From: a virus
DNA: 46,056 nucleotides
Strand: one strand, 5' to 3'
Virus record (IMG/VR): IMGVR_UViG_3300028398_000003
Location: 1-46,056 of that record
Positions 2,649 through 46,056 of this stretch are shown here, piece by piece. Numbering within the stretch: the first letter of the stretch is position 1; every line of letters starts with the position of its first letter. The translations under genes were made by a program, and so were the position numbers. Under the pieces are notes generated by a model, which was not told the origin of the DNA, ran no database searches, and saw only the letters and a list, made by a program, of their open reading frames with translations.

Positions 2649-5600
2649 TTGAAGAGTGTAGAGTTAGTATTAAAAATTGGTGCAAAAGTTGGTGGAATGA
2701 TGAGAGGAATGCAATCTGCTACCAACTCTGTAACAAAAGTTCAACAGACGATAGAGAAGCTGAACTCTAAAAAGATTAATATTGTTGCTAATGATAGCTC
2801 TGTAAAAAAAGTTAAAGATAATATAGAAAAAATAGATAATCAACTTGATGATTTAAAAAAAAGAAAAACAGAAATCTCTTTGGGTCTAAACAAAAATAGA
2901 GAGGCAGAGCTAAATGAGTCTATAGTAAAGATAGAGAATAAAATAGATACCCTAAAATCAAAAAAAGATACCATTGAGCTTAAAATAAAGGCAACAACAG
3001 ATACTAAAGAGTTAAAAAAACTCAATCGTCAGCTTAAAAGTACTCAAACTAAAATAATAGGGCTTTCAGAAGAGAAGCTAAAAGTAAAAGAAGAGTTCAA
3101 TGAAGTTAGAGATGCAAATAAGACCGTTACTAAAGAGCTTAAAAAAACAAGTAATGAGATAAAAAAAATAAATGGTCAAAAACTTGAACTTAAAGATGAA
3201 CTTAAAGAGGTTCAAAAAGAGGCATTAGAAACCAATTCTACCATCAAAAATATAGAGAAAACAGTTAATCGGCTCAACGGTACAACTCTTAAGATTAAGC
3301 AGATTGTAGAACGGAGAGAGATTTTAAAAACTGAACTTCTTGGTAATGTTCAAAAAGTTGCTAGTATGGGTGTAGCTTTAGGGGGTGTTGCTTTTGGGAT
3401 TGACAGGATAAATAAAGCAACAGTTCAGATGTCAAATTTGGCTGATACTGTGGGATTGAGCTTCAATACCGTTAATGCTCTTGGTTCTGCTGTAAAGGGT
3501 ATCGGTTTAGATTACGAACATGTAACCGACATTATGGAGGAGCTTAACAATAAGATTGGTGAATCTAAAGTAGTTTACCTTGATTGGCTCAAAGAGGACA
3601 AAGGAAAAGGAAAAGAGCTTAAATTAGTTGGTGGTGTAGACGATGCTTTTAAAGGTTTAGACTTCTCTTTATCAGATAAGAGTTTCAAGGGTCTAAACTA
3701 TGAAGAGCAATTTAAAAAGTTTTCTGGACTCAAAGGAGATAAACAATTTGAGATAGTTATGGATACAGCTCTTAAAATGAAGGACCAACAAAAGGCTGCT
3801 TCTATGGTTGATATTTTGATGGGTGGAGAAGCCAATAAAATATTAAGTTTTTTACGAAAACAAGGTAAGAGTTATAAAGAGTTTATAGAGGACAAAAAGA
3901 AGCTAATTTTCTTAGATGAAGAGGGGCTAAAAGGTGCTAAGGCTTATGCAAAGGCATCAGCTACAAGTGCTTCTATTGTTAGTTCTGTTTTTCAACAGTT
4001 CAGTGGAATTGGTGGGGGCTTTATGAGTCCTGTATTGGATAAATTCAATAAATGGTTAGTGCTTAACAAAAAGATAGTTAAATCAAATATAAAAGGTTTT
4101 TTTGTTGGTATCAAGTCGGCTCTTGGGAGTGTGGGAAATGGAATTGATTATGTTTATGGGAAACTCAAACCTCTTACTAATCTTTTAGGAATTACAAGCA
4201 ATGAAGCCAATAAAGCTGGAGAGAGTGGAGAGAGGTTTGGTAAAGCTCTAACTTATATCGGTGCAGGGCTTGGTGGGCTGTTGGCTGTCAAAATGGCAAT
4301 AGGTGCAACAAAAATAGCAACAGGCTATGCATCAAATGGTATTCGGCTACTTAGGCTTAGTTACTTAAAATTAAATGCAGTTGCTTTGGCTACTCGTGGG
4401 AGTACGGCTTTGTCTATGTTGTCTTTTAAAAATCTTGGCAAAGTAGCAAAGGCTACAGGTCGAATTATGTTGAGAACTCCTATTGGTTTAGCTATCGCAG
4501 GTATTGCTCTTGGTGCTGTTATGGTTCGAAAATATTGGGAACCGATTAAAGGCTTTTTTGTTGGGGTTGTTCTTGGAATTGGGGATGCATTAGGCACTGT
4601 CAAGACTATTTTTAGTACAGTTTTTGGAGCGATGGAGTATTACATACGACCTATCATTACTATTTTAGAGCCTATAGGAGATATATTTAAGACGGTTTTT
4701 GGTACTGCTGTTGGATATATAAAACAGCTTATTAAGCCTCTTTCTAGTGTGTCGGACAGTGTAGCTAGTGCTACGGCAAACGGTCGGAGTTTTGGACAAT
4801 GGCTTGGTTATATTGGTGCAGGTGTTGGTGGGGTTTTGGCTCTTAAAGGAGCGTTTATGATTTTAGCTCCTGCCATTGGTGCTGTGGGCAGTGTCTTAGC
4901 TTTTGTTGGTAGAACCCTCCTCCTTAACCCAATAGGATTAGCAGTTACTGCCATAGCAGGTAGTGCTTATCTTATCTACTCAAACTGGGGAAAAGTGAGT
5001 GGATTTTTTAGCTCTTTATGGAGTGGTGTTAAAAATATATTTAGTTCTGCATGGGAGGGAATAAAAAGCATTTTCTCCTGGACCCCTCTTGGAGTACTCG
5101 CAAATAATTGGCAACCGATTTTAAATTTTATTGGTGGCATTGGTACAGGTGTTAAAAATCTACTTGGTAGTGCGTGGAATGGATTAAAGAGCATTGTTTC
5201 GTGGAATCCTTTGGACTTTGTGGCTCAAAAATGGAACGGCTTGATGAACTTTTTTTCTAATTTTTCACTCAAAGATGCAGGAAGCAAAATAATTAGCTCT
5301 GTCATAGATGGAATGAGTGCCACATGGCAGAAACTTACCAAAAAAGTAGGAGACATTACCAAGAGCATTAGAGACTTCTTTCCTTTCTCTCCAGCAAAAA
5401 AAGGAGCTTTGACCGACATACATCGCATAAAGCTAATGGAAACCGTGGCTAGTGGCATAAATGACAAAGTTCTAGCAAAGTCGGTCAATAATGCGACAAT
5501 CAAAGCTAGAAAGGCTCTAAAACTTGGAACAGCTGGATTAGCTCTTAGCTCATCTATTGCAGTTGCCAATCCCACACAGAACAATAACGTTTCATCAGAA

Positions 5601-6688: not shown

Positions 6689-7617
6689 CAAAACCTAATT
6701 ATAGATTAACACTTAGTGGAAATGTAGTCAAAAAAAACTATGTCAAATCTATAAGTTTTAAAGATGAAATAGATAATAAATCAGATGAGATAACAGTGCA
6801 AACAACGCGAGAATTTCCAAGACCCTCATTTGGAGATGTGGTTACATTGGAACTAGGGTATAAAGATAGTGGATTGTCTTTTATGGGAAAGTTTTTCGTT
6901 CAAAGCCATACCATCACTAATCAAAATCTAACCTTCCGTGCAACTGGTGCTGATTGGACGGAAGAACTGAAAAAAAAGAAAAATAGAAAATGGGAAAATA
7001 TAGATATAAGTGGAATTGTAGGGAAAATAGCAGGAGAGCATGGGCTTGGAAACAAATGTGATAAGAGCCATTTTTTCAGACATGAGGCACAAACGCATGA
7101 GTCTGATATTCATTTTTTACAAAGATTAGCAAAGTTTTTGGATTCTACTTTGAGCATAAAAAATGCTAAGATATTGTTTTTAGATAAAAATACGTCTAAG
7201 CCACAATACTCTTGTAATTTTAAAGAAGCTATTAGCACTAGCATAGAGCTTGTAAACAAAACAAAATATAAATCTGCAAAGATGACATATCGAGATACTA
7301 AAAAAAATAAAGATATAACAGTAACAGTTGGAGGTGGAACACCTGTACTGGAGCTAAAAAAAAGTTTAGATAGCTTTTCTAAAACAGATACCCCCTTAAA
7401 AGAGAATGCAAAAACATTTGCACAGCATCAATTGGACTTAGCAAACGTAGGAACAATAAGAGGAAGAGTGACCATAGATGGTAGTACATCTCCAAAAGCA
7501 GGTGGAGAGATAAATGTCAAAAAAAGTAAATATGATGATGGTATTTATAAGATAAAGAGGGTTACCCACACATTAAACAGCAATGGGTGGGTAAGTGTTG
7601 TGGAGTTTGAGGGTTAA
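6679..7617 (+). CDS. D: Baseplate hub protein gpD (late control protein D family)
   Basis: A 312-aa member of the P2 gpD / late control D family, equivalent to the T4 gp27 hub that joins the tail tube to the spike. Typical pieces are visible: SISFKDEIDNKSDEITVQ near residue 25, HTITNQNLTFRATGADW around 75-92, and a QTHESDIHFLQRLAK segment near 140. It is the last gene of the tail operon. It converges on the minus-strand block with a 4-base overlap and no room for a terminator between them. Confidence 0.9.
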   Translation: MGLTKPNYRLTLSGNVVKKNYVKSISFKDEIDNKSDEITVQTTREFPRPSFGDVVTLELGYKDSGLSFMGKFFVQSHTITNQNLTFRATGADWTEELKKKKNRKWENIDISGIVGKIAGEHGLGNKCDKSHFFRHEAQTHESDIHFLQRLAKFLDSTLSIKNAKILFLDKNTSKPQYSCNFKEAISTSIELVNKTKYKSAKMTYRDTKKNKDITVTVGGGTPVLELKKSLDSFSKTDTPLKENAKTFAQHQLDLANVGTIRGRVTIDGSTSPKAGGEINVKKSKYDDGIYKIKRVTHTLNSNGWVSVVEFEG

Positions 7618-8204
7618 ACAAGCTTTTTAAAAGCCAACTCAAAATTCCTAAATTCATGCAGATTTTTTAAAAGTATTTCAACTCTCTCTAAATCCACTAT
7701 AAAGACAGGAGAATTTCTATAGCTCTCCTCTGTCTTTAACAGAACTTTGGAATCTAGCAATCTTGGTAGCCAACGGCTAAATGCTGTAGGGTTTAAGAAC
7801 CCAGCTTTTTGATAAATTTCCTTTTGATAAACCTCTTTTTTTTCTAATTTAAGAAGAGCCTCTACTATAGGAATTAAATTTTTATGGTTTTTAGTATTGT
7901 ACCAAGAACCATTGAATTTAAAAATCTTATGCTCTTCGCAAGAATTAAAATCAGTTAAAATCCCTCTATAAAATTGAGGTGCGATTGCACCAGTATTTTT
8001 AATAAGTTTTATTTTATTTGTGTGGTAAATTCTAATATCATTATTTATATCAACTTTTATATATTTAGCATTATATAATGCACGAATATAATTTGAGATT
8101 CTAATAATATTAAAATCTGTTTTATGGTGTAGTTCATCTACACTCATCTCTTTTTTTTGCAACAGCTCATAAATGGATTGTTGCATTGTTTTAATTTGCA
8201 TCAT
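7614..8204 (-). CDS. Winged-helix protein, end of the ParB/PAPS-reductase operon
   Basis: 196 aa. Residues about 5-60 (MQQSIYELLQKKEMSVDELHH then a recognition-type helix and a YIKV wing) read as a winged helix-turn-helix. Residues 115-175 (VEALLKLEKKEVYQKEIYQKAG) look like a second one, so this may be a double-wHTH DNA-binding protein. Its ATG overlaps the TAA of the ParB-like gene (TAATG), so it is translationally coupled. It could regulate the operon or guide the upstream enzymes to DNA. I do not recognise a named family. Confidence 0.72.
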   Translation of the reverse strand: MMQIKTMQQSIYELLQKKEMSVDELHHKTDFNIIRISNYIRALYNAKYIKVDINNDIRIYHTNKIKLIKNTGAIAPQFYRGILTDFNSCEEHKIFKFNGSWYNTKNHKNLIPIVEALLKLEKKEVYQKEIYQKAGFLNPTAFSRWLPRLLDSKVLLKTEESYRNSPVFIVDLERVEILLKNLHEFRNFELAFKKLV

Positions 8205-8707
8205 TACAAACCTTTTACCCAGCTACGACTAAACTCTTCATTCTTATATAAGTTTGGAAGTCCAGACTGCATTTTAAACCTCAATAGCTCTTCAGCAGAC
8301 ATATTCAAAGCTTTACATATGTCTTTGTCACTCATCTTCATATTAACCATTCTAGCCACCATGTCGCTAGTTGGGTCAATTTGATGCTTACCTCTTGCTT
8401 CGTTAAAAGCTACAGTAGCACTCATCATTTTTTCCATCTCTAAATCCAAAATAATTACTGGAACTTCTTTTAATTTGAAATGATTTTTCAAAACAGTTAA
8501 TCTATGGAAACCATCAACAACTATATATTTGTCAATATTTTCTTGATATATAACTGTTATTCCATAGGCAAGACCAAAAGTTTCTATGGAATAAATAAGG
8601 TACTTCATCTCAGCCGAAGCTACTTTATTCGGATTGTAATCATTTGCCTGAATCTTATCTATTGGCACAATAATCGGTGTCATGCATGTTAATTCTACTT
8701 TTTTCAT
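8204..8707 (-). CDS. ParB/Srx-fold domain protein (IbrB-like)
   Basis: A 167-aa single-domain ParB/sulfiredoxin-fold protein. The N-terminal PIDKIQANDYNPN and the nucleotide-site motif VDGFHRL (residues 64-70) are typical. In the fold family, members bind or hydrolyse NTPs on DNA or act as nucleases. C-terminal residues 115-150 (MVNMKMSDKDICKALNMS) form a helix-turn-helix. Together with the upstream PAPS-reductase-like gene it makes the IbrA/IbrB-type pair known from E. coli, where the pair raises eib gene expression by an unknown mechanism. Biochemical role here is unknown. Confidence 0.82.
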   Translation of the reverse strand: MKKVELTCMTPIIVPIDKIQANDYNPNKVASAEMKYLIYSIETFGLAYGITVIYQENIDKYIVVDGFHRLTVLKNHFKLKEVPVIILDLEMEKMMSATVAFNEARGKHQIDPTSDMVARMVNMKMSDKDICKALNMSAEELLRFKMQSGLPNLYKNEEFSRSWVKGL

Positions 8708-9126
8708 TATTTTTTTCCTTTATTAATAAATAATCTCATTGTGAAGTACTTACCTCTTTTTGAGATTTCATAAAAACCAAATTGTTCTAATATTGGTTTT
8801 GAATTATCTGTAGCTGTTGCTGTTATTTTTTTAACATTTTGTTGTTCTTTGCAAAATGCTATTCTTTCTTTTAAGAGTAACTTATATACTCCATTTCCTC
8901 TAAACTTTTCAAATACATAGGAGTGATGAAGTGTAGCAACTTCTTTTCCAATAGACACAGCTCCAAAGCCTACGACCTCCCCTTTTTCTTTGCATATCCA
9001 CCAAGTATAGCTATCATCACTGCTGATTGCTATACCTAATGCTTTTCTAATTTTTCTTGAAGCAACAATGCTCCCAAGACTACACCAAAGTTCTTTTTCA
9101 TTGTGTTTATATTTTTTTAATTGCAT
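8707..9126 (-). CDS. GNAT-family N-acetyltransferase
   Basis: 139 aa. Start chosen at the ATG overlapping the preceding TAA (TAATG), behind AAGGA; a longer start 18 bases upstream lies inside the previous gene and is less likely. The GNAT core is visible: EVVGFGAVSIGKEVATLHHSYV (strand beta4), then the acetyl-CoA loop FRGNGVYKLLL (R/QxxGxG/A-like), and a C-terminal ILEQFGFYEISKRGKYF. The substrate is not evident. Being sandwiched between PAPS-reductase-like and ParB-like genes suggests a nucleic acid or partner-protein substrate. Mu Mom is a known GNAT-like DNA-modifying enzyme, but I see no specific Mom signature. Confidence 0.82.
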   Translation of the reverse strand: MQLKKYKHNEKELWCSLGSIVASRKIRKALGIAISSDDSYTWWICKEKGEVVGFGAVSIGKEVATLHHSYVFEKFRGNGVYKLLLKERIAFCKEQQNVKKITATATDNSKPILEQFGFYEISKRGKYFTMRLFINKGKK

Positions 9127-10199
9127 TATAATATATCCTTCCATTTTGATAAGCTATCTCTATCGCTTCTTTCAACTACTGGCACTGAATTTTCATAATC
9201 ATTTATCAATAATTGTTTAACCTGTTGCTTCAGAACAGCTACTGACTCTGATTTAGTTTCAAATCGTTTTCTAAATCTTCTTTTTTTTTCATCAGAGACA
9301 GGAATATTTTCAAGTAAATAATCTCTATATTCTTTCCAGTCTTTAAATTTTTTAGGAAGTTTTTTATTGTCATATATAAATTGTTCCTTGCCATATTTGG
9401 CAGCACTTCTAACGCCTTTTAGACGCTTAACTAATCTATCATAGTTATTAGGTTCAAACTTTTGTAGGCTAGTCAAACACCTAAAACTTTTTTCATGAAC
9501 CAAGTTTGAAACTCTTAGGCTTGATATCCCTTGACCACTAACCCACATCCAATCGTAGGCTTTATTGTAAGGTACATTGAACTTACCTATGTAAGTCCAA
9601 ATGTCCTCAAATGTCCAGTCATAAATTGGATAAAACTTAATTGTTTTACCTTTACCTTTACTACACCAAGGAATATTAGGCAGACCAGGATGTGAAGTAA
9701 CAGCTCCATAACGGTTAAGGCTCTCTTCGGCTCTAAGTCCGATTAAAAAAGCTGTATTTTGTTGAGCTTCATACCATTCCAAGAATGCATAGAATCTATC
9801 AGGAGCATCAGTTGAATGAATTGAAATATCTTCTTTCTCTCGTATCCACTCCACCCCATCTTCCCATGCATGTAACATATCCTCTTCATAAGAAGTGGAA
9901 TTTGTCATTCTAATAGGTACTTGAAACCAAGCTCTCTCAATGTTTGGCTTTTTCATAAGCTCTCTCATTAAGTCGATAGTACTGTCATATTCTGCCTCTT
10001 GGTCAAGAAAGAATAGTACAATCTTTTTGTTTCGCTCCATAGCAATATTATATGTCAAGTCAAATAGTACAGTGCTATCTTTCCCTCCACTAACACTACA
10101 AACAACCCTGTCATATCTATCAAAAATCATGTTAATCCTCTCTCTTGCAGAGGTCAAAACATCTTTTTGTAAATAAATCTTTCTGCCACTCTTAGACAT
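9126..10199 (-). CDS. PAPS-reductase/PP-loop family protein (IbrA-like)
   Basis: A 357-aa adenine nucleotide alpha-hydrolase (PP-loop) family protein with the signature SGGKDS at residues 37-42. Further landmarks are FFLDQEAEYDST near 65, GLRAEES near 155, and FYPIYDWTFEDIW near 190, the latter two standard in phage PAPS-reductase-like proteins. The C-terminal region (from about 230) is an accessory domain with basic helices, as in IbrA (DUF3440-type). True PAPS reductases make sulfite; phage members with ParB-like partners have no established reaction, and some relatives (DndC, SspD) act in DNA phosphorothioation. The start overlaps the preceding gene by eight bases. Confidence 0.85.
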   Translation of the reverse strand: MSKSGRKIYLQKDVLTSARERINMIFDRYDRVVCSVSGGKDSTVLFDLTYNIAMERNKKIVLFFLDQEAEYDSTIDLMRELMKKPNIERAWFQVPIRMTNSTSYEEDMLHAWEDGVEWIREKEDISIHSTDAPDRFYAFLEWYEAQQNTAFLIGLRAEESLNRYGAVTSHPGLPNIPWCSKGKGKTIKFYPIYDWTFEDIWTYIGKFNVPYNKAYDWMWVSGQGISSLRVSNLVHEKSFRCLTSLQKFEPNNYDRLVKRLKGVRSAAKYGKEQFIYDNKKLPKKFKDWKEYRDYLLENIPVSDEKKRRFRKRFETKSESVAVLKQQVKQLLINDYENSVPVVERSDRDSLSKWKDIL

Positions 10200-11220
10200 A
10201 ACTCATCTCCTTTGTTAAACTATTTATTTGACTCAATTCACTTTCTATTTTGGAATATAAATGTGTATCAACACCCATATCACCCAATATGTGAAAAACT
10301 TTTGTATCTTTAATGGCTTTACTCTCTGCATCTAATAGAAAATAAGACTTAACTATTGGGGATTCTGCATAGATAATATTATCTACATCTCCAATGTGAC
10401 CTTTTTGATAAGAGGTACAAACAATATTTTTATTTCTACCAATTATTTTTTTAACAGCAACAGCATAACTACTTAAATTAAAATAAATAACTGTCGTACC
10501 CTCTAAATAAAGGGCTAACTCTGCTACTTTTTCTCTTCTTGAACTAAAAGCATGAGCTGTATCAGCAAGACGCGTAATAATTCTAGTAATATTTTTCTCT
10601 TTGGCAAAAAGCTCATCTTTTTTAACTTGATAACGCTTCAACTCTTCAGGAGTGGAAGTAATTTTTATAACTTTTCTATCCTCTACTAAGAATTGAGAAT
10701 AATCAATATCTGTAACCTTCATAATCTTTTCAGCTAACAGTTGATGGTCATGTCCATCAACTATCGTTCCATCTTCTAACTGTTCTTGATAATTTTCTTT
10801 AAAAGCATAGAAATGTGCGTGACCCAAAACTGCACGAGAAATATAAACATAAGTAGTATATAAATAAGAAATATCAAGAGTAAACGGAACAATATCAATG
10901 ATATATTTATTTTCCATTTTAACTTTCATAGCCAATCTATATAAATATTTATACTTGCTCGAAGTAATTAACGGATACCTAGATGGATTTTCCATTATTA
11001 AAATAGTATCTTCATTTAAAATACTATTTACAGTCAACCACTCATCATCCTTTGTAATATCTTCAAAGGTGACACAATATGCACCTTTAAAACTCTTTTT
11101 TCTATTTTTAGGATAGATATAAATAACATCATTTTCTATAATCTTATTTTCTATGATTTTTTCAATAAACTTCTCTTTTCTCCTTTCATCTTTCGATATT
11201 AATACATTTTTATCCATCAT
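10192..11220 (-). CDS. Degenerate SNF2-like paralogue lacking ATPase motifs
   Basis: 342 aa. By eye it aligns end to end with the neighbouring SNF2 helicase but has lost every catalytic motif. There is no Walker A. The DESS box corresponds to LIMENPS (74-80), LTGTPLTNGIVSLYSQ corresponds to DIVPFTLDISYLYTTY (109-124), and the arginine-finger motif QAEDRCHRIGQ corresponds to LDAESKAIKD (296-305). Fold landmarks such as VIYFNLSSYAV (244-254, versus VIIWAKYHYDI) are kept. It probably partners or regulates the active helicase. Start and stop overlap both neighbours, so expression is coupled. The homology is inferred without a database search. Confidence 0.7.
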   Translation of the reverse strand: MMDKNVLISKDERRKEKFIEKIIENKIIENDVIYIYPKNRKKSFKGAYCVTFEDITKDDEWLTVNSILNEDTILIMENPSRYPLITSSKYKYLYRLAMKVKMENKYIIDIVPFTLDISYLYTTYVYISRAVLGHAHFYAFKENYQEQLEDGTIVDGHDHQLLAEKIMKVTDIDYSQFLVEDRKVIKITSTPEELKRYQVKKDELFAKEKNITRIITRLADTAHAFSSRREKVAELALYLEGTTVIYFNLSSYAVAVKKIIGRNKNIVCTSYQKGHIGDVDNIIYAESPIVKSYFLLDAESKAIKDTKVFHILGDMGVDTHLYSKIESELSQINSLTKEMSYV

Positions 11221-12620
11221 AAACCCTTTATAAAATTTTCCAAAGACTTTTTGTCCTTGACTTTTTCAATCTCTTTTCTAAAAGCCTCTGCAACAGAAGC
11301 TTTTGACCAAATCGCACCTAATATTCTCTCATCTATACTATCAGAGCAACAAATATCAATATAGGTCACTTTTTGCTCTTGACCGATGCGATGACATCTA
11401 TCCTCTGCTTGTACTCTCTTTGAGTAAGAGAAGCTATTATTATAAAATATAGAGTAATGAGCCTCTACAAGAGTAAGACCAAATCCTCCAGATGATTGAG
11501 TAATGACTAAATACTCTTTTGAAGTTCTCCATTCATCCAATACTTTTTCCTTTTGTTGTTCATTTAAAAGTCCTGTATAGTAAACTGCATTATCTCCAAG
11601 AGCCTTTCTAATAAGTTCAATATCATAATGATATTTCGCCCAGATAATTACTTTTTTATCTTTCGGTATAGAGTAAAGCACATCTTCAAGTGCATCAACC
11701 CTATACATATCATCAAAATAGAGAGGTTCACTTCTATCTATATTTCTATATCCACTAACTATCTGCTGTAGAGCTTGAAATAGTTTGAAAATATCAACAG
11801 CAGAAAACTCTGTTGGGTCTATCATCTCCAAGAACTCAATTTTGGCATTATCATACGCTTCTCTCTGCTCTTCACTCATCTTAAAGTATCGTGTATCATA
11901 GACCTTTTCAGGTAAATCTAAACACTCTTCTTTTGTAACTTGATAGACATAAGGGGCTATTTTAGCAGCCAAATACTCTTCATGTAGAGTATTAATTATC
12001 ATACCTGGATATTTTTCTGAATAGACTAGATGGTTATTAGCAAAGCTATAAAAACTTTGATAATCTAAAATCTTTGGGCTTAAAAACTTCATTTGACTAT
12101 AAAGAGATACAATCCCATTGGTAAGGGGTGTACCTGTAAGAATAAATCTATATTTGCACTCTTTTGTAATAAATGATAATCGTTCAGCTCTTTTAGATTT
12201 ATGATTAGCAATAAATGATGATTCATCTACAATTACACAAGTATCGCTATCAACCAAAGCATTAAGAGCTAAAGTAGTTCTATCACTTTGGCTAATGGAC
12301 TCTAGTCCAACTATATACCAAGATGTATTAGGCATATTGGCATCATCTGTTTTATTATCAAACACATAAATATCTGAAATATTTGTGTGCTTTAAAATCT
12401 CTTTACGAATAGTCTCTTTTGTAGATACTGGGCAAACCCATACAACTTTAGAGATTCTATCAGCTCTTTGTCGAACCATCTCTATAGTTGTTAGAGTTTT
12501 GCCTGTACCCATCTCCATAAAGAGACCAGCAACTCTTACAAATTTAGTTTGAACTGTAAATTTCTCTACAGCTCTTTTTTGATGTCCCATCAGTGTTGAG
12601 TTAATCAAGAAGGGTTGCAT
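11217..12620 (-). CDS. SNF2-family DEAD/DEAH helicase
   Basis: A 467-aa two-lobe SF2/SNF2 ATPase. Motifs in order: Walker A MGTGKT (37-42), motif II VDESS (131-135), motif III LTGTP (161-165), motif V GGFGLTLVEA (378-387), motif VI QAEDRCHRIGQ (404-414). These fit the phage SNF2 group, which translocates on double-stranded DNA without strand separation and can remodel DNA-bound proteins. It lacks the N-terminal accessory region of longer relatives, which may be supplied by the upstream 359-aa gene; the two overlap by 20 bases. Confidence 0.93.
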   Translation of the reverse strand: MQPFLINSTLMGHQKRAVEKFTVQTKFVRVAGLFMEMGTGKTLTTIEMVRQRADRISKVVWVCPVSTKETIRKEILKHTNISDIYVFDNKTDDANMPNTSWYIVGLESISQSDRTTLALNALVDSDTCVIVDESSFIANHKSKRAERLSFITKECKYRFILTGTPLTNGIVSLYSQMKFLSPKILDYQSFYSFANNHLVYSEKYPGMIINTLHEEYLAAKIAPYVYQVTKEECLDLPEKVYDTRYFKMSEEQREAYDNAKIEFLEMIDPTEFSAVDIFKLFQALQQIVSGYRNIDRSEPLYFDDMYRVDALEDVLYSIPKDKKVIIWAKYHYDIELIRKALGDNAVYYTGLLNEQQKEKVLDEWRTSKEYLVITQSSGGFGLTLVEAHYSIFYNNSFSYSKRVQAEDRCHRIGQEQKVTYIDICCSDSIDERILGAIWSKASVAEAFRKEIEKVKDKKSLENFIKGL

Positions 12621-13680
12621 CTATTTCTCCCTCCTTTGGTGTGAAGTCTTTTTCTGTACTTGTAACTTTGATAGACTCTTTACCTTTTTTTAGACTAGGA
12701 ATAAGTTGAGCTTTTTTAAAGGCTTTTGCCTCTTCTAAAAGCTCTAAAGCCTTTGGTGTAAATCTAAAGTCATACTCATTCGCAAAATCTTCTACAGCTT
12801 CAAACTGTTCTGATTTTACATCTACTGTTGGGTTGTCCCATTTTGAAGTGGGTATTTTTCTAGCTTCGGCATAAAAATCTTCGTAGTATCTTTTCCATTT
12901 GATGCTAAACTTTCCTTTGTAGGTCCGTATCCATCTTGTATGTTCAGGTTCATAAATACCCTCTATGGCTTTTTTTCTTAATTCTTCATCAAAAATTCTA
13001 ACGATAAAACCCTCTATCAAGAGTAAGTTTCCTATTTCTGAAATTCTATCTTCTTTTGAACCTGTGGTAATAGATAATTTTCTATACCATCTAGCATTCC
13101 CCCAACTAAAACCATGAGCCTTCACTAAAGTTCTGAAATCTTCTCTTTTTTCAGGGAACTCAATACATATTTTTTCATCTTCAGCAAAGATATAAGCTAC
13201 AGTTTCAGACAAAGCAGTCTCTGGGCGAATAGTTGCCTCTAGTTCTGCTTCTTTTTGTAGTTTCTGTTCTAAATCTTTCTTAATCTCAACCTCTTCATCT
13301 TCAATCTCTTCTAAAAGTTTGTTAAGTTCTCTGCCTCTTCTATCTATCCAAAAAGAAGCTGATGTATTTTTGAAGAGTTTGGTTATTTTATAATTTGTAG
13401 AGCTATCTACAACTAAATTAGAACTTGCTTGAACAAAAGAAGCTCTAATAGTTTCAGCCCAAGCTATTTGTTTTTCAGAACCAACCAATAGAGGTAATCC
13501 CTCTTCTCTATTCTTCTCTGCATTTTTTTCATTGATTTGGCTAACTCTCTTTTGCTTACACTCATCACACTCATGTGACCAATGGTCTGCTCTCCATTGT
13601 CTATCTCTGCTATTGCCACCCCAGGTATGAAAATCCATACTTTGACCACAAGTGTCACACTTAACTACATATCTTGCCAT
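12601..13680 (-). CDS. Zinc-ribbon protein, probable accessory subunit of the SNF2 helicase
   Basis: 359 aa. Residues 9-42 carry two CxxC pairs (CDTC and CDEC, with intervening His) forming a zinc ribbon. Residues 115-160 are acidic coiled coil. The C-terminal region (about 250-325) reads like the segment placed before the motor in some phage SNF2 helicases (IPTSKWDNPTVDV, then VEDFANEYDFRFTPKALELL). With the 20-base overlap to the helicase gene this suggests a split helicase in which recognition and motor parts are separate polypeptides. Start ATG behind GGAG on the minus strand. Confidence 0.65.
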   Translation of the reverse strand: MARYVVKCDTCGQSMDFHTWGGNSRDRQWRADHWSHECDECKQKRVSQINEKNAEKNREEGLPLLVGSEKQIAWAETIRASFVQASSNLVVDSSTNYKITKLFKNTSASFWIDRRGRELNKLLEEIEDEEVEIKKDLEQKLQKEAELEATIRPETALSETVAYIFAEDEKICIEFPEKREDFRTLVKAHGFSWGNARWYRKLSITTGSKEDRISEIGNLLLIEGFIVRIFDEELRKKAIEGIYEPEHTRWIRTYKGKFSIKWKRYYEDFYAEARKIPTSKWDNPTVDVKSEQFEAVEDFANEYDFRFTPKALELLEEAKAFKKAQLIPSLKKGKESIKVTSTEKDFTPKEGEIDATLLD

Positions 13681-13706
13681 TTTTTACTCCTATATGATAT
13701 AATATA

Positions 13707-13755
13707 GGGTCGGTTTCCAAAACGACCCATTGAGCGAATCTGAACTATTCGCTCA
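13707..13755. other. Two tandem hairpins between minus-strand genes
   Basis: GGGTCG/CGACCC (13707-13712 with 13723-13728, extendable by TTT/AAA) and TGAGCGAAT/ATTCGCTCA (13731-13739 with 13747-13755, 9 bp, 7-nt loop). No T-run follows on either strand. They lie just upstream of the zinc-ribbon gene and just after the alternative-frame stop of the preceding gene, so they may be an attenuator, an RNA-processing signal or protein-binding sites. Confidence 0.5.
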
Positions 13756-13816
13756 CCTAACTAAAGCCACTCTTTAAGTAACTTCAAATTCTCTAAAATC
13801 TTTTCAGTATCTCTAT

Positions 13817-14194
13817 TTATAATATTCCTAAGATTTTTTTTCTAATTTGTTCAAGCTTTTCAGCTCTTTGGAACATCGCATCGTCCGTAAATGGACTTTG
13901 CATCACCTTTGTGAGTGTCTCGGCTATTTGGACTAGCAGAGAATATCTACCTGCTTTTGCAAGACCCTCTAGCTCTTCAATCTCTTTGTCGATGTCAGCT
14001 TTACTCTCTCGAAGAGTTGCTAATTCTTCGAGAGAGATACCATTTTCCTGGCATATAATGCCAAGATACATGGTGTCAAATTTCAGAGGTTGTTTTTTCG
14101 CAACCTCTGCAATGTTTTTTACCCAGCAAAAATCTGATTTTGCTAGTTTGGTAAAGTTTATTTTGTTGTTTTTGTTTTTGAACTCTTTAAACAT
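13817..14194 (-). CDS. Hypothetical coiled-coil protein, possible -1 frameshift at its end
   Basis: 125 aa, unrecognised. Residues 55-80 form a charged helix (LATLRESKADIDKEIEELEG). The start ATG overlaps the upstream stop (TAATG). Six codons before the stop is a run of eight A on the coding strand, in phase as A AAA AAA (13841-13835). A -1 slip there would replace the last five residues with a 24-residue, leucine-rich helix (NLRNIINRDTEKILENLK...) ending at 13761, immediately before the two hairpins. The longer 144-aa form may be real, either by slippage or because the A-run length varies. Confidence 0.68.
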   Translation of the reverse strand: MFKEFKNKNNKINFTKLAKSDFCWVKNIAEVAKKQPLKFDTMYLGIICQENGISLEELATLRESKADIDKEIEELEGLAKAGRYSLLVQIAETLTKVMQSPFTDDAMFQRAEKLEQIRKKILGIL

Positions 14195-14544
14195 TAGTAT
14201 ACCTCATAGAGTTCGAAGAGGTATTCTCCAAACTCCTTCAATGGCATTTTTGCAATATCTTCAAAATTGCCAAAGAGCTTCCCTCTGCCATCAGCGGTAA
14301 TATAATAGAACCGTCCGATTACTATTTTTTTCGCATAGTCAAAAGACCAACCGAATGTTTTCATCATGTGTTCAATTCTGCCATCTAGTGCAGAATATGG
14401 ATTTTCTGTCTCTACTGGAAGATTATACTTCCTAGCAGAAACAGAATACTTTGCCTTTTTCCAGGCAGATTTCAATGCTTGAGACATACTCACGCTATAA
14501 GTACGTCTCAATGCATGAGCATAAGTCATTATTTTTTTCATCAT
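14194..14544 (-). CDS. Hypothetical protein, first gene of the helicase/ParB operon
   Basis: 116 aa. The start is placed at 14544 (MMKKIMTYAHAL) because AAGGA lies six bases upstream and the promoter -10 box overlaps the longer possible start at 14574. The N-terminal motif LRRTYSVSMSQALKSAWKKAK is a short helical module common at the start of small plasmid and phage proteins. The remainder (GWSFDYAKKIVIGRFYYITADGRG) is unrecognised. It begins a series of nine tightly coupled minus-strand genes. Confidence 0.7.
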   Translation of the reverse strand: MMKKIMTYAHALRRTYSVSMSQALKSAWKKAKYSVSARKYNLPVETENPYSALDGRIEHMMKTFGWSFDYAKKIVIGRFYYITADGRGKLFGNFEDIAKMPLKEFGEYLFELYEVY

Positions 14545-14572
14545 TTGTTGTCCTTTATGTTTTGACAAAGAC

Positions 14573-14578
14573 ATTATA
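14573..14578 (-). promoter_or_regulatory. -10 box of the nine-gene minus operon
   Basis: The minus strand reads TATAAT here, which would start transcription near 14566, 22 bases before the 14544 ATG. No good -35 is present, and the operator-like site at 14591-14604 occupies that region, so the promoter may need an activator or be controlled by a repressor. Confidence 0.55.
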
Positions 14579-14590
14579 ACACTATAAATC

Positions 14591-14633
14591 TTAGATATAT
14601 CTTAAATTTAGTAAAAAAATAAGATACATCTAA
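14591..14633. promoter_or_regulatory. Pair of operator-like 14-bp sites
   Basis: TTAGATATATCTTA (14591-14604) and TAAGATACATCTAA (14620-14633) are inverted relative to each other with 13 of 14 positions matching, and each is nearly palindromic around AGATRTATCT. Their starts are 29 bp apart. The first overlaps the -35 region of the minus-strand promoter, as expected for repressor sites. The cognate regulator is unknown. Confidence 0.55.
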
Positions 14634-14650
14634 AATGTTTTTCATAAAAT

Positions 14651-18442: not shown

Positions 18443-19522
18443 ATGAAAAGTTTTGATAAGAAAGTTTCTATAACTGTTAGAAAATACAAAAGTGGAAAAA
18501 AAGTAATACAACTAAGACGATTACCCATTTCAAAATATGGCGATGTAAAAGTCGTAACTGGAGATGAACCCACTGAACAAAATATCATTCACTATAAAGT
18601 GAATGGGCTTGACGAATTTCTGAGATTGACAGAGAAAGAAAAGATTCAAACTTTCATGGATTTTGCAGAAGAAACGATGCAAATCATAAATGCAAACGTA
18701 AGCAATGCAGAAAAAAATGATAGAAAAAGGCATCTTGAAAAGTATATCTATCCTACTTTTGCTGATATAAAACTAGATAATATAACTTCTAAAAAAATAG
18801 AAGTTTGGCAATCTAAGCTTTTATCTCAAAAAGGAGCAGACTATACAAGAAGAGTCAAACATCTTTTCAAAAGACTTTTATCAAGAGCTGTCGTACACAA
18901 TCAAATCATGGCAAACCCAATGATTGGGACAGAAAAGATAAAAGGAAGTCATAAGACTATTAGAGAAATTTACAATTTGAATGAAATAAAATTGATGATA
19001 CATCATTCAGATGGTTGGTTAAGAGTCTTTATACTAACTAGAATTTTTCTAGGTGTTCGCTCACATGAATCAATAGGATTAAAGTGGACTGATTTTGACT
19101 TTATTCAAAAGAATGTTAAAATCAGTAGAGGGATTCGTTTTGGAAAATTTACAAAAGCAAAAGGCAAAGAGAGAATAGTGGATGTTCCACAAACTCTCAT
19201 AGATGCTCTAATGAAACATAAAGAGCAAAGTAAAAGCGAATGGGTTTTTACAAATAGTAGAGGCGAATACTGGAGTGATTGCTCAAGTATTACAAAAAGA
19301 CATTTTAAACCTCTCTTGAAAGAGATAGGAGTAAAATATAAAAGCTTCTACAGCTTACGACATTCATATGCAACACTTTTGCTAATAGGGGGACAATCAT
19401 TACCCTATGTATCTAAACAGTTGGGACATACAAAAGTTTCTACTACTACAGAGTACTATATTAAATATATAACAGAAGCTGGAAGTAGAGAGAGAACAGA
19501 AGAAATTCTAAAGCTAGATTGA
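18443..19522 (+). CDS. int: Tyrosine-type integrase next to attP
   Basis: A 359-aa phage integrase. The N-terminal part has an arm-binding-type region and a SAM-like core-binding domain (about 60-160). The catalytic domain shows R206 (GVRSHESIGLKW), R306 in YSLRHSYAT, H329 (QLGHTKVSTTTEYY) and nucleophile Y338 or Y339. The usual HxxR histidine is replaced by Tyr303, a substitution seen in other phage integrases. GGAGG precedes the ATG. The partial tRNA 80 bp downstream marks the attachment site it should act on. Confidence 0.93.
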   Translation: MKSFDKKVSITVRKYKSGKKVIQLRRLPISKYGDVKVVTGDEPTEQNIIHYKVNGLDEFLRLTEKEKIQTFMDFAEETMQIINANVSNAEKNDRKRHLEKYIYPTFADIKLDNITSKKIEVWQSKLLSQKGADYTRRVKHLFKRLLSRAVVHNQIMANPMIGTEKIKGSHKTIREIYNLNEIKLMIHHSDGWLRVFILTRIFLGVRSHESIGLKWTDFDFIQKNVKISRGIRFGKFTKAKGKERIVDVPQTLIDALMKHKEQSKSEWVFTNSRGEYWSDCSSITKRHFKPLLKEIGVKYKSFYSLRHSYATLLLIGGQSLPYVSKQLGHTKVSTTTEYYIKYITEAGSRERTEEILKLD

Positions 19523-19527
19523 TTTTG

Positions 19528-19549
19528 GAACTTTTATAGAACTTTTATA
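19528..19549 (+). repeat. Putative integrase arm-type sites
   Basis: GAACTTTTATA is repeated in tandem (19528-19538, 19539-19549), with a diverged third copy following. AGAACTTTTTA recurs at 19721-19731 on the far side of the tRNA fragment. Direct repeats flanking the crossover site are typical of integrase arm sites. Confidence 0.5.
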
Positions 19550-19600
19550 GAACATCTTTATAAAAACAATAGAAAAGATACCCAAATATAGGGGCATGTG

Positions 19601-19652
19601 GACTCGGCTCATAACCGAGTGGTCGAGAGTTCGAGTCTCTCCCGACCCACCA
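19601..19652 (+). other. attP: attP core: 3' part of a tRNA (CAT anticodon)
   Basis: The segment contains an anticodon arm with loop CTCATAA (CTCGG/CCGAG stem), a T arm GAGAG-TTCGAGT-CTCTC, and the 3' acceptor strand CCGACCC with encoded ACCA. The 5' acceptor (GGGTCGG expected) and D arm are absent upstream, so it is not a complete tRNA. Integration at this sequence would restore the 3' end of a host tRNA-Met or tRNA-Ile2 gene. Which of the two cannot be told from the fragment alone. Confidence 0.82.
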
Positions 19653-23216: not shown

Positions 23217-24118
23217 TGATACCCTACATAACTATTAAAATACCTGTACCGTATATGAATAAACTCCTAAAGAGTAACAAGAACAAATTCCACGCATTTA
23301 CTGAATGGTTAGCCGTAAACGAGCAGATAGAATTTGGTATCCTAGAGAAGATGCACTCTCTCAAGTTTTTTCAAGAGAGCTGGGGACAATGGGAAAGAGG
23401 GAAATGTATAAAATTAAAATCTAGCCAACTGGTTAGAAATTGGCTAGAAGAGTTTGAAATGGAAATGGAAAAAGCAGATGCTTCATGGAGCTTGAGACGA
23501 TGGGAACGCTCTGCTAGAGCTAGAAATAACTCTCTGCCAAATAGCTCTGCTCAAAAACAGACTGCACCCCAACTGCACCCCAACTGCACCCCAAAAGTGC
23601 CTTTAAACGCCGATATAAAGGCATCTGGAAAAACAGACTGCACCCCAACTGCACCCCAACTGCACCAAAAGAATATATATGATGATGATGGGGGAGATTT
23701 TGAAGAAAAAAAATGGATTAGAGAATTTGAAAATCTATTTATGTCATATAGAGCTTTTAATGCTAAATATGCAGGTAAAAAAGCTGAAGCGTTGAATACT
23801 TATATTGCTTTTAGAAAAAAAGGCAACAGCATAACAGTTCAAGAATTGAAAAAAGCAATAATCTTCTACATGAAAGATAAAGATATTAAAAAGAAAAATG
23901 GATTTAAGAGTTTTATTGAAAATGAACTATATTTTCAATATGTAGATAAAAACATAAATTTTAAATTAGATAATGGGAAAATTGTCAATGGTATATGGAG
24001 TTATACAGAAGAGATTCTGTATGTAGAAAATAAAGCATTTGGAGCATTAAATAGAGAGAGATTTCAATCTTATTTACAAAATGGCAAAATTGAATTATTA
24101 GATGAGAGGGTAGCGTAG
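23216..24118 (+). CDS. Replication initiator (lambda O-like), gene contains the origin
   Basis: 300 aa. The N-terminal 100 residues look like a winged-helix DNA-binding domain of phage initiators. Residues 105-150 are a low-complexity linker encoded by the iterons. The C-terminal half (about 160-250) reads like the helical replisome-organiser domain (FMSYRAFNAKYAGKKAEALNTY, FKSFIENELY). Domain order, internal iterons and adjacency to a DnaB helicase parallel lambda gene O. The start codon overlaps the helicase stop (TAATG). The specific family is inferred, not matched. Confidence 0.72.
   Translation: MIPYITIKIPVPYMNKLLKSNKNKFHAFTEWLAVNEQIEFGILEKMHSLKFFQESWGQWERGKCIKLKSSQLVRNWLEEFEMEMEKADASWSLRRWERSARARNNSLPNSSAQKQTAPQLHPNCTPKVPLNADIKASGKTDCTPTAPQLHQKNIYDDDGGDFEEKKWIREFENLFMSYRAFNAKYAGKKAEALNTYIAFRKKGNSITVQELKKAIIFYMKDKDIKKKNGFKSFIENELYFQYVDKNINFKLDNGKIVNGIWSYTEEILYVENKAFGALNRERFQSYLQNGKIELLDERVA
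23561..23669 (+). repeat. ori: Replication origin: six 11-bp iterons in two triplets
   Basis: ACTGCACCCCA occurs at 23561, 23572, 23583, 23637 and 23648, with a diverged sixth copy at 23659. The two triplets are 76 bp apart and separated by an inverted repeat TGCCTTTA/TAAAGGCA (23598-23605 with 23616-23623). Because 76 is not a multiple of three, the triplets are read in different frames (QTAPQLHPN versus TDCTPTAPQL), so selection is on DNA. An AT-rich stretch follows from 23667, suitable for unwinding. Confidence 0.8.
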
Positions 24119-27304: not shown

Positions 27305-28387
27305 ATGGGGGTAAAAAAAGGTTTTGTTAATTCTAAAAAATATGGTGCAAAAGTTAAGCTCTATTATCCAGCTGACCACAAGAGTAGCAAAGAGATTATC
27401 TATTATGTTACATATAAAAAAGCTGATGGAAAAAAGGAGGTCACGCCTGTTGGTAAAAAATCAAATGGTTGGAATGAGAAGAGAGCATTTAACCAAAGAG
27501 CTAAATTGATTGATAAAGATAAGTTTGGTACAGGTGTACATAATGAGTCAGTTACTGTTGGAGATTTGGCAGTTGAATATTTTGAATGGGCTGAAATTCA
27601 CAATAGGTCTTGGTTAAAAACTTTTCAAAAATATAACAAGCATTTATCTTATTTAGATGACAGAGTTGTTGTTTCTTTGAAAGATTTAGACATTACAAGG
27701 CTTCAAAAAAAGTTAAAAGATAAAAAAATGGCTGATTCCTATAATAATGATATTGTAGGGATATTGACGGCAATAGTGAACTTTGGTGTCAAAAAAGGCT
27801 TTTTAGATTTTAGCCCATTTAAGGATTTGAGAAAAATGAAGATTGATAATAGTCGTAAAAGATTTTTAAATCAAGATGAGATAAACAGACTTTATAAAGC
27901 TGTTGAAAACAATAAGTATCTTTATAATTTTGTTGTGTTGGCTCTTGGTATTGGTGCGAGAGCTGGAAGTATTTTAAAAATTAAAAAAAGTGATATTGAT
28001 TTTAAAAATATGAATATATCAATAGAGGATGTAAAAAGAGGTTCACACTACACTAATCCAATCAATCAATTGATATATGATACTTTTATAGATTTTGAAG
28101 AGGAGAGTTTGGTCGGTGGAGTTTCATACCATACTTTTTATCATGTTTTTAAAAAAGTTTTAGATGAGCTTTTCAATAAAAAATTGAAGCCAAAAGATGA
28201 GAATAGAGTGAGAATGCATACTCTTAGGCATACTTATGCTTCTCATTTAGCTCTTAACAATACTCCTTTAGACAAAATGCAAAAGCTCTTGAATCACGCA
28301 GACATCAATATGACGCTTCGGTATGCTCACTTGATGCCTGATGCTGGAGAGGAGTTTGTGAAAAAATTATATAGTGAAAGTGAGTAG
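27305..28387 (+). CDS. Second tyrosine recombinase
   Basis: 360 aa with a full catalytic set: R219 (GIGARAGSILKI), K244 (EDVKRG), H305 and R308 (MHTLRHTYAS), H331 (LLNHADINMTLRY) and nucleophile Y340. The N-terminal region carries an AP2-like or arm-binding beta segment (IIYYVTYKKADGKKEV) and a SAM-like core-binding domain. It is unlike the first integrase in sequence and sits in the late region between lysis genes and dam, with no tRNA fragment nearby. It may resolve phage genomes, or be a relic of another integrated element. Confidence 0.9.
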   Translation: MGVKKGFVNSKKYGAKVKLYYPADHKSSKEIIYYVTYKKADGKKEVTPVGKKSNGWNEKRAFNQRAKLIDKDKFGTGVHNESVTVGDLAVEYFEWAEIHNRSWLKTFQKYNKHLSYLDDRVVVSLKDLDITRLQKKLKDKKMADSYNNDIVGILTAIVNFGVKKGFLDFSPFKDLRKMKIDNSRKRFLNQDEINRLYKAVENNKYLYNFVVLALGIGARAGSILKIKKSDIDFKNMNISIEDVKRGSHYTNPINQLIYDTFIDFEEESLVGGVSYHTFYHVFKKVLDELFNKKLKPKDENRVRMHTLRHTYASHLALNNTPLDKMQKLLNHADINMTLRYAHLMPDAGEEFVKKLYSESE

Positions 28388-28392
28388 AAAGT

Positions 28393-29172
28393 ATGAAATT
28401 TAAAAGGTTAAAAGCTCCGTTTGGCTGGGTTGGTGGCAAGAGTAAATTGGCTAATGATATTGTAAAGATGATGCCTGAACATAATATGTATATTGAAGTG
28501 TTTGGTGGAGGTCTAAATGTTTTGTATGCAAAGCCTAAGATTAATTTGGAAGTAGTAAATGATATTAATGGAGAGTTGATTAATTTACATAGACATATTA
28601 AAAAGAGTCCTGAAAGTTTAAGCTTTTATCTCAAGCAATTTTTGATTAGCCGTGAATTGTTTTATGATATGAAGTTTAATAGATATAAGCCTCGTAATGA
28701 TATTGAGAGAGCGGCCATTTATTTTTATATGTTAGGTCAGAGTTTTGGTAGTATGGGTTCTACTTATGCGATGCATACCAAAAGTGGTAGAAAACCTAAA
28801 AATATTTACAAAAGTTTTCAGCAGTGGTCATTAAGACTGAGACATACGACAATTGAAAACATGAGCTTTGATAAGCTGATTGAGACTTATGATAAGGAGG
28901 GTGTGTTGTTTTATTGTGACCCTCCTTATTATAAGACAGAAAATTATTATAAAAATACAGGGGGTTTTGGAGAGGTCGAACATAGACTTTTATCAGAGAA
29001 ATTAGGCAAAATAGATGGTAAGTTTTTGGTTAGCTATAACGATTGTGCATTTATTAGAGAGCTTTATAAGGATTTTAAGATTATTAATTCTAAAGAGGTT
29101 GAATATACTCTTGGGAAGAATGTTCATAAGAAATCTAAAAAAGTTAGTGAAATTTATATCGTGAATTATTGA
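28393..29172 (+). CDS. dam: DNA adenine methyltransferase (Dam-like)
   Basis: 259 aa, class D12 N6-adenine methylase. AdoMet motif PFGWVGGKSKL (9-19), EVFGGGLNVLY (35-45) and catalytic DPPY (176-179), with the C-terminal KKVSEIYIVNY typical of the family. Probably methylates phage DNA against host restriction. Its TGA once overlapped the start of the gpZ-like gene (TGATGAAG); an insertion has since separated them, and codons from residue 217 on are duplicated at 31521. Confidence 0.92.
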   Translation: MKFKRLKAPFGWVGGKSKLANDIVKMMPEHNMYIEVFGGGLNVLYAKPKINLEVVNDINGELINLHRHIKKSPESLSFYLKQFLISRELFYDMKFNRYKPRNDIERAAIYFYMLGQSFGSMGSTYAMHTKSGRKPKNIYKSFQQWSLRLRHTTIENMSFDKLIETYDKEGVLFYCDPPYYKTENYYKNTGGFGEVEHRLLSEKLGKIDGKFLVSYNDCAFIRELYKDFKIINSKEVEYTLGKNVHKKSKKVSEIYIVNY

Positions 29173-31508: not shown

Positions 31509-31589
31509 TTTACCTGCTGTGATTGTGCATTTATTAGAGAGCTTTATAAGGATTTTAAGATTATTAATTCTAAAGAGGTTGAATATACT
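31509..31589 (+). pseudogene. Recombination junction: DUF1353 scrap fused to a dam 3' fragment
   Basis: 31509-31520 (TTTACCTGCTGT) matches the DUF1353 gene at 26947-26958, and with the next bases still reads SLPAVIVH, so it comes from a DUF1353 allele. 31521-31589 is a perfect 69-bp copy of dam (29041-29109). The switch lies in the shared GATTGTGCAT. The last 63 bases of dam are missing from this copy. Confidence 0.85.
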
Positions 31590-31593
31590 ATTG

Positions 31594-45337: not shown

Positions 45338-45987
45338 GTAAAAATCAAACGGAACAAATAGCAGAGCTAATAGAAACAAACACGAGATTGACTTCTGTAT
45401 TCCTTGAAAAAGAAGAGGAAATAAACAGTAAAATGGAAGAGTTTGTCGCTTGGAAAAATAGTCAAAATATTAATTTTAGTGCAAATGAATTTTATTGGGG
45501 TGCAACGCCAAATGTTACTTTTCCTAGTGTTTTAAAAGCAAAAACTAAAGAATTAAATGTAGGAGGAGCATACGATTCCGAAACAGGGGTTTTTACAGCG
45601 CCAATTGATGGAACATATATGTTCTGTGCTACAGTTTTTGTATCTACTTTCTCGGGGGCAAATGCAGACGGCAGTAAGGCAAATTATAATGATAAAAAAT
45701 GGCATGAGGATATTCTAGTAAATTTAAACCATTATTTAGCAAAAGAACAAATATTTGGTACAGGAAAAGGAGCTAATAAACTTGGAGAGATGTGGATAGG
45801 TGAAGATGGTGGTCTCATTGATGGGGATAAGCGAAAAAAATGGCATCGAAAATCAGCTTCAACCCAAGCAATAAAGTATTTAAAAAGAGGAGAAAAAGTA
45901 TGTTTAGAATTCCAAATTTGGAATGAAGCTAATACAGGAGATAAAGTAAGTATGAGTTACAACTTTTCAGGAACAAAAATAAACTAA
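45334..45987 (+). CDS. C1q-domain receptor-binding protein
   Basis: 217 aa. Residues 1-45 are a coiled coil (EQIAELIETNTRLTSVFLEK). Residues about 50-217 are a C1q-like jelly roll: LNVGGAYDSETGVFTAPIDG then TYMFCATVFVS, and near the end YLKRGEKVCLEFQIWN and SYNFSGTKIN. C1q domains trimerise and often bind surface glycans or proteins. ATGA overlap with the fibre gene, so they are made together; this is probably the host-recognition tip. It ends within the terminal repeat. Confidence 0.87.
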   Translation: MSKNQTEQIAELIETNTRLTSVFLEKEEEINSKMEEFVAWKNSQNINFSANEFYWGATPNVTFPSVLKAKTKELNVGGAYDSETGVFTAPIDGTYMFCATVFVSTFSGANADGSKANYNDKKWHEDILVNLNHYLAKEQIFGTGKGANKLGEMWIGEDGGLIDGDKRKKWHRKSASTQAIKYLKRGEKVCLEFQIWNEANTGDKVSMSYNFSGTKIN

Positions 45988-46056
45988 GGAGCAATGATGA
46001 AAAATGAAAACACAGAGGATTTAAATCCTATTGAAAAGCATGTGTATCTACACTAT
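45930..46056. repeat. Terminal direct repeat, right copy
   Basis: Identical to 1-127. Contains the end of the C1q-domain gene and, from 45994, the first 63 bases of the 122-aa gene annotated at 65-433. Confidence 0.95.

Follow-up and report, generated by a model that had tools for sequence, protein, structure and literature searches.

The virus record IMGVR_UViG_3300028398_000003 of IMG/VR, analysed over its whole 46,056 bases (hereafter, the window), carries on its minus strand seven head-to-tail genes (7614-13680) that overlap by 1-20 nucleotides (nt). In order, they encode a protein that we call p359, an SNF2 ATPase, a paralogue of this ATPase (the twin), the PP-loop protein IbrA, a GNAT acetyltransferase, the ParB-like protein IbrB, and a winged helix-turn-helix (wHTH) protein. 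The genes from p359 to IbrB constitute a real and conserved variant of the IbrA-IbrB pair with a dead SNF2 partner, undescribed as far as the literature was searched. We found no description of the p359-SNF2-twin-IbrA-GNAT-IbrB set in openly accessible literature, and queries combining phosphoadenosine phosphosulfate (PAPS) reductase, ParB, SNF2, and GNAT (subscription papers lying outside their scope) returned only BREX, Dnd, and unrelated work. The first-pass annotation had proposed an undescribed system in this region. This holds for the full set, but not for its core, as the pair already bears the name IbrA-IbrB in the annotations of Flavobacterium phage FCL-2 and Streptococcus phage CHPC877. 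We tentatively propose, with a probability of roughly 0.4, that the module acts as an ATP-dependent DNA base-modification machine.

We collected loci from viral and genome contigs with IbrA profiles, and with SNF2 and p359 alone, and scored them with profiles of the window proteins; the counts of IbrA loci include near-duplicates and the window itself (143 nonredundant IbrA rows). Enough flanking sequence on either side is available for 158 IbrA loci, and in 157 of them a same-strand IbrB homolog lies no more than 4 kb away, in 118 cases within 50 nt. An SNF2-like gene is found in 74 of these 158 loci, GNAT in 50, and p359 in 32; by neighbor clustering, a GNAT homolog lies in the neighborhood of 53 loci. 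Two further tests used queries other than IbrA. All seven SNF2 relatives at 48-52% identity adjoin p359, IbrA, and IbrB, whereas none of the 73 at 29-33% does, which rules out the SNF2 gene being an ordinary phage helicase adjacent by chance. Similarly, 15 of the 16 full-length p359 homologs sit with IbrA, the remaining one lying at a contig end. As judged from these neighborhoods, the p359-SNF2-twin-IbrA-GNAT-IbrB set is one conserved unit, with linkage far above chance. The first-pass annotation, which had taken the genes as one system, is borne out here; the outcome that it named as contrary, genes unlinked in all relatives, is clearly not what the neighborhood search found.

The unit is not rigid. 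In locus L248, p359 and SNF2 are 64% and 83% identical to those of the window and the twin is absent, the IbrA is of a long form (429 residues, 32% identity), and IbrB is 45% identical. As these two proteins are kept beside a different IbrA, both kinds of IbrA block appear to be acceptable partners for p359-SNF2. DPPW-type amino-methyltransferase-like genes occur in 43 other IbrA-IbrB loci. In L088 (1612-10628), p359, SNF2, and GNAT are found with two IbrA-IbrB pairs in tandem, a partner-like gene, and a gene resembling DPPW methyltransferases. Nine loci (L090, L091, L097, L101, L114, L177, L178, L203, and L232) have IbrA-IbrB beside type IV-B csf2/csf3-like genes, and most of them hold a second, shorter CysH-like gene; no description of this association was found in the literature. 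A glycosyltransferase-like neighbor family spotted by eye in other loci is not claimed: the one member tested had no Pfam match, and the neighbor cluster containing these candidates had also merged twin-like proteins.

The most distinctive member of the unit is the twin, a protein of 342 residues that Pfam, PHROGs, NCBIfam, and PADLOC all fail to recognize. Its AlphaFold2 model (predicted local distance difference test, pLDDT, 88; seven sequences) retrieves SNF2, ISWI, and CHD motors from the PDB (best E value 2e-10), and by this model the twin has the SNF2 two-lobe fold. In alignments with SNF2 proteins, Walker A, the DExx box, and motif VI are gone, and at these positions the twins carry other conserved residues (SRYP, DIVPFT, and ESPIVKSY); LGHAHFYAFKE and RLADTAHAF-SR are further twin-specific conserved motifs. 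Of 149 SNF2-like proteins, 138 retain Walker A, 148 DE[SAG], and 141 motif VI. All six twins tested lack Walker A and motif VI; one carries a stray DEG, which lies off the DExx position. By these alignments the twin is a catalytically dead SNF2 paralogue, as the first-pass annotation had recognized.

Full-length twins were identified in nine loci, the window and eight others, always in the order SNF2-(GNAT)-twin-IbrA. The carriers are a viral contig (L092, in which no IbrB was seen), an acidobacterial metagenome-assembled genome (MAG; L168), Methylobacterium (L169 and L170), Cohnella (L176), and a Prevotellaceae MAG (L179, with about 540 nt between twin and IbrA). Two more (L282 and L283), in which IbrB follows, were obtained with the twin as the only query; patterns from a seven-row twin alignment had returned one known locus only, and a tighter four-row alignment gave these two. 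Intact reading frames in nine loci and common invariant residues rule out a pseudogene. Each of the six carriers re-examined by genome search has one full-length twin. Single-sequence twin searches of viral contigs, GenBank phages, and plasmids gave no match, and of the 397 and 399 genomes sampled around two carriers (about 800), only the carriers themselves encode a twin; the full twin is therefore rare.

Many short-form IbrA genes lacking a full twin have instead a gene for a protein of 246-291 residues directly upstream. Four families of these shorter partners match the twin profile with 93-98% probability (scores 55-97, compared with at most 29 for shuffled controls and at most 17 for unrelated families). 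As none of the four matches SNF2 profiles directly, their descent from SNF2 is deduced by way of the twin. A partner or full twin lies directly upstream of 31 of the 87 short IbrA genes (345-392 residues) versus none of the 81 long full-length ones. It is also present upstream of an apparent IbrA fusion of 789 residues (L102, 7717-10086). In L172 (698-2170), a partner-like protein lies inside an open reading frame (ORF) of 490 residues, an apparent fusion. In the IbrA phylogeny, all 30 rows with a partner fall within one clade of 46 rows and the partner label requires five changes; according to this tree, the dead SNF2 partner thus belongs to one branch of IbrA.

The first-pass annotation had assigned SNF2, PAPS-reductase-like, GNAT, and ParB-like domains, and Pfam agrees (PF00176, 2e-23; PAPS_reduct, 2e-20; GNAT, 3e-12; ParB_N, 2e-6). 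The IbrA of the window matches PF11922 (DUF3440) over positions 4-93 of 182 only, that is, along just one half of a C-terminal domain that is not present in full. For this reason, we regard the module as a variant and not as a plain member of the IbrA-IbrB group; the short form is common to a large clade. The PP-motif S-x-G-K-D-S is found in 143 of 143 rows, with S37, G39, K40, D41, and S42 invariant. No conserved cysteine column exists among these relatives, and the CysH catalytic motif ECGLH occurs in one of them. IbrA scores 44 bits against CysH models with a 165-bit cut-off, and 26.7 bits against DndC, compared with 290.4; its nearest PADLOC defence profiles are DndC and BrxP. With an invariant PP-motif, no conserved cysteine, and ECGLH all but missing, IbrA is most plausibly an ATP-pyrophosphatase that would adenylate something, and neither a sulfate reductase nor a DndC-type sulfur carrier. 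IbrB retains, by the same motif audit, the DGxHR site of ParB/Srx proteins, as DGFHR in the window and as DG.HR in 181 of 183 relatives. The GNAT protein has a weak match to RimI.

The SNF2 ATPase, as its alignment shows, keeps its motor motifs: Walker A (MGTGKT), DESS, and QAEDRCHRIGQ. Its nearest PADLOC profiles are ZorD and then DpdE, with DrmD also matched. Homologs of p359 share the invariant cysteines C11, C38, and C41, and an N-terminal Zn-ribbon is followed by a helical segment, marked by the motif SEKQIAWAETIR, which resembles the anti-CRISPR protein AcrIF23 (E value 6e-6; Foldseek probability 0.99 over 89 columns, E value 0.38). The p359 model (pLDDT 87) contains two copies of an alpha/beta domain with weak Foldseek matches to the XPB N-terminal domain (E values 0.01-0.4). 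Assignment of p359 as a HARP protein was not retained, as HARP is absent from the Pfam families listed for 23 p359 members and Foldseek gave no more than the weak XPB matches; it remains a lead. We suggest that p359 could be the DNA-recognition subunit of the motor. The N-terminal, AcrIF23-like domain is also found without IbrA-IbrB, standing alone in 12 loci. Short stand-alone homologs of this kind in L263, L267, and L269-L274 may represent a reservoir of Acr-like proteins.

In the mechanism that we propose, p359 and the active SNF2 ATPase would engage duplex DNA and travel along it, and the dead twin would be a structural adaptor docking IbrA on the motor or the DNA. IbrA would then adenylate a group on the DNA, possibly a base carbonyl, as is usual for PP-loop enzymes. 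An amine or another nucleophile would displace adenosine monophosphate, the product would be acylated by the GNAT protein, and IbrB, by binding nucleotide and DNA, would set the site of modification. The modified phage DNA might be protected, or might be marked for expression or packaging. Several observations led us to this reading: the linkage itself, the twin in nine loci, the amino-methyltransferase-like neighbors, and the DndC, BrxP, and DpdE profiles. The interchangeable neighbors in other loci are nucleic-acid tools. Genomic location points in the same direction, because the genes of FCL-2, L248, and L002 lie between terminase and portal; in the window, the operon differs in being on the opposite strand and after the tail genes.

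Other facts weigh against DNA modification, which we infer from sequence. The cysteines of DndC and CysH are missing from IbrA. Many loci have IbrA-IbrB and no SNF2, p359, GNAT, or twin, so these four are optional. The near relative L002 (90%; 2960-4019) retains only the last 42 residues of IbrA, behind the terminase, with GNAT and IbrB intact. Finally, the only genetic phenotype of IbrAB known to us, the activation of eib genes in Escherichia coli reportedly described by Sandt and Hill, is transcriptional. In a rival reading, the module would be a co-activator of prophage genes, with IbrA-IbrB acting on promoter DNA or RNA polymerase and SNF2 remodelling it in the manner of RapA. Annotations of IbrAB do read "co-activator of prophage gene expression", the CHPC877 pair adjoins cro-like and antirepressor genes, and the window IbrB overlaps a wHTH regulator gene. 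However, that gene is not conserved, the FCL-2 and L248 genes sit among packaging genes, and a PP-loop ATP-pyrophosphatase, a GNAT protein, and amino-methyltransferase-like neighbors suggest covalent chemistry, which makes a role in transcription or antirepression unlikely. Counter-defence without DNA chemistry appears quite unlikely too. There, p359 and SNF2 would remove or obstruct restriction or CRISPR complexes of the host, and IbrA, GNAT, and IbrB would modify a protein target. Proteins are common GNAT targets, in keeping with the weak RimI match, and the AcrIF23 resemblance fits such a role, but this resemblance is confined to the helical segment of p359 and, as the domain also stands alone, may denote a shared adaptor.

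A temperate phage with two integrases might also carry the module as an anti-phage defence, excluding competitors by modifying or degrading nucleic acids or nucleotides. The defence profiles nearest to the SNF2 ATPase and the IbrAB copies in type IV-B csf2/csf3 loci agree with this idea, but no nuclease effector was recognized in the operon, and the FCL-2 module lies among late genes of a phage reported to have no integrases or repressors (PMC4541368); we consider it distinctly improbable. The automatic annotation PF01507 and the common reading of viral cysH as a sulfur metabolism gene (PMC9301287) would make IbrA a genuine PAPS reductase boosting sulfate assimilation by the host. This is ruled out as far as the motif audit and the CysH scores given above can do so, and the IbrA gene travels with SNF2 and ParB and not with cys genes, so that we give an auxiliary sulfur role next to no credence. 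We retain DNA base modification as the most likely reading, with transcription control, counter-defence, and defence as its serious competitors. Its extension is more doubtful than the reading itself: the machine may be widespread in phages and their hosts and undescribed, pairing a live SNF2 motor with an evolved ATPase-dead twin, and this twin would present DNA to IbrA, a PP-loop ligase without cysteines. GNAT and ParB-like proteins would be further subunits, in sibling modules amino-methyltransferases or RNA-guided type IV-B complexes would be swapped in, and some of the viral cysH genes catalogued worldwide as "sulfur" genes would be IbrA.

The layout of the region is given in table 1. The first-pass annotation had described nine tightly overlapped genes at 7614-14640. 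The nine ORFs are confirmed, each of them on the minus strand, but two of them, p126 and p125, lie beyond a gap of 136 nt containing hairpins; the boundary at 7614 is correct, and the run starts at 14574, the remainder up to 14640 being merely upstream sequence. The controlled stoichiometry read from the overlaps is unsupported. The two hairpins (13755-13731 and 13728-13707; fold z -2.75, with equally good folds in 4 of 200 shuffles) make this stretch a possible regulatory leader of p359. Neither the wHTH gene nor the first two genes, which had been counted as parts of the system, are conserved parts of the module, judging from the other loci. No wHTH homolog was found in 275 loci, this gene being known from the window alone, and it is perhaps a local regulator. 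For p126, no confident family match was obtained in Pfam, PHROGs, or PADLOC, and it is probably outside the conserved module.

Table 1. Genes and predicted RNA structures of the window operon, with the distance to the next gene (negative values, overlap)
Feature	Coordinates	Strand	Junction with next gene (nt)	Basis
p126, small orphan protein encoded first in the run	14194..14574	-	-1 (TAATG)	no homolog in 275 loci
p125, small orphan protein, its gene 136 nt ahead of the seven that overlap	13817..14194	-	+136	no homolog in 275 loci
Two strong predicted RNA hairpins, 136-nt gap upstream of p359	13707..13755	-		fold prediction
p359, Zn-ribbon, helical segment, and two alpha/beta repeats; module-specific SNF2 partner	12601..13680	-	-20	
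SNF2 ATPase, motor motifs intact	11217..12620	-	-4 (ATGATGG)	Pfam, alignments
Twin, ATPase-dead SNF2 paralogue, 342 residues	10192..11220	-	-8	alignments, model, PDB fold search, motif audit
IbrA, PP-loop ATP-pyrophosphatase, PAPS-reductase family, short form	9126..10199	-	-19	Pfam, motif audit
GNAT acetyltransferase of the module	8707..9144	-	-1 (TAATG)	Pfam
IbrB, ParB/Srx-fold protein, DGFHR and NDYNPN signature	8204..8707	-	-1 (TAATG)	Pfam, motif audit
wHTH protein, start overlapping the IbrB end	7614..8204	-		phrog_2030 transcriptional regulator, 5e-6

The window encodes a tail sheath, a tape measure, a terminase, a portal, and two integrases, and by this gene content it is a temperate, myovirus-like phage. 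An identical 127-bp direct repeat at both ends (1-127 and 45930-46056) indicates that it is probably a complete circular assembly. No near relative of its first 25 kb was found in the phage collection. In the first integrase region (18443-19649), the integrase gene is followed by a tRNA-like sequence (Rfam, 19592-19649), possibly an attachment-site relic; the second integrase is at 27305-28387. Iteron-like repeats of 11 bp (CTGCACCCCAA; 23542-23677) lie within an orphan ORF of 300 residues after the DnaB-like helicase gene, and repeats and ORF are a possible replication origin and initiator. Two 73-nt repeats with 99% identity, spaced 2.48 kb from each other, overlap the end of a methyltransferase gene (29041-29113) and the start of a neck gene (31521-31593), and this pair looks like a recombination scar.

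Viral cysH is among the most cited auxiliary metabolic genes of viromes. A conserved set with a dead SNF2 paralogue, together with the near absence of a reductase site among 143 relatives, argues that viral cysH of the IbrA type acts on nucleic acid and not on sulfate. The type IV-B loci provide a lead on the role of CysH-like proteins in these systems. In type IV-B, CasCysH has, like IbrA, the CysH fold and a PP-motif without catalytic cysteine, and the same reasoning has been applied against a reductase role (PMC8175902); it is a separate, shorter paralogue, and csf1, csf2, and csf3 have no match among the scanned window ORFs.

The first-pass annotation had stated that the set corresponds to none of Dnd, Ssp, and Dpd, and we agree, having seen no cysteine-bearing DndC, no DndA, DndD, or DndE, and no DpdA. 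Dnd shares with the window a PP-loop ATP-pyrophosphatase (DndC) and a ParB/Srx protein (the ParB-like DndB); it differs in the conserved cysteines and in an ABC ATPase in place of the SNF2 motor. DndA, DndD, and DndE were found neither by PADLOC among the operon genes and ten other ORFs nor in the PHROGs scans, some small ORFs being unscanned. The Dpd 7-deazaguanine system also combines an SNF2 motor (DpdE) and a ParB-like ATPase (DpdB), but the window has a PP-loop enzyme, and DpdC and the tRNA-guanine transglycosylase (TGT) DpdA were not seen; apart from SNF2 to DpdE, the scanned ORFs, again without some small ones, gave no TGT or Dpd match. As for BREX type 4, IbrA matches BrxP over the PP-loop part only (35 bits), and PglZ has no match. 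SMARCAL1 and XPB combine a DNA-recognition domain with an SNF2 or XPB motor; the p359 repeat has a weak likeness to the XPB N-terminal domain (E value 0.01 or worse) and is likewise paired with an SNF2 motor, here divided between two genes. Mom of phage Mu is a GNAT-like protein of DNA hypermodification; the window GNAT is a phage GNAT, ordinary by Pfam, possibly in a DNA-modification setting.

The closest known relatives are the IbrA-IbrB pairs (DUF3440 and ParB-like), named for years without, to our knowledge, a biochemical function. They include E. coli YbdN-YbdM, the K-12 pair of this kind (PMC9068703), FCL-2 gp08-09, which with two ORFs upstream is common to a host genome (PMC4541368), and CHPC877 gp28-29. 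The window has both core proteins adjacent, as in these pairs; in FCL-2 (gp07) and CHPC877 (gp27), an SNF2-like gene adjoins the pair as well, and the phage or prophage setting is common to both. The window module differs in its short IbrA and in the addition of an ATPase-dead SNF2 partner, p359, and GNAT.

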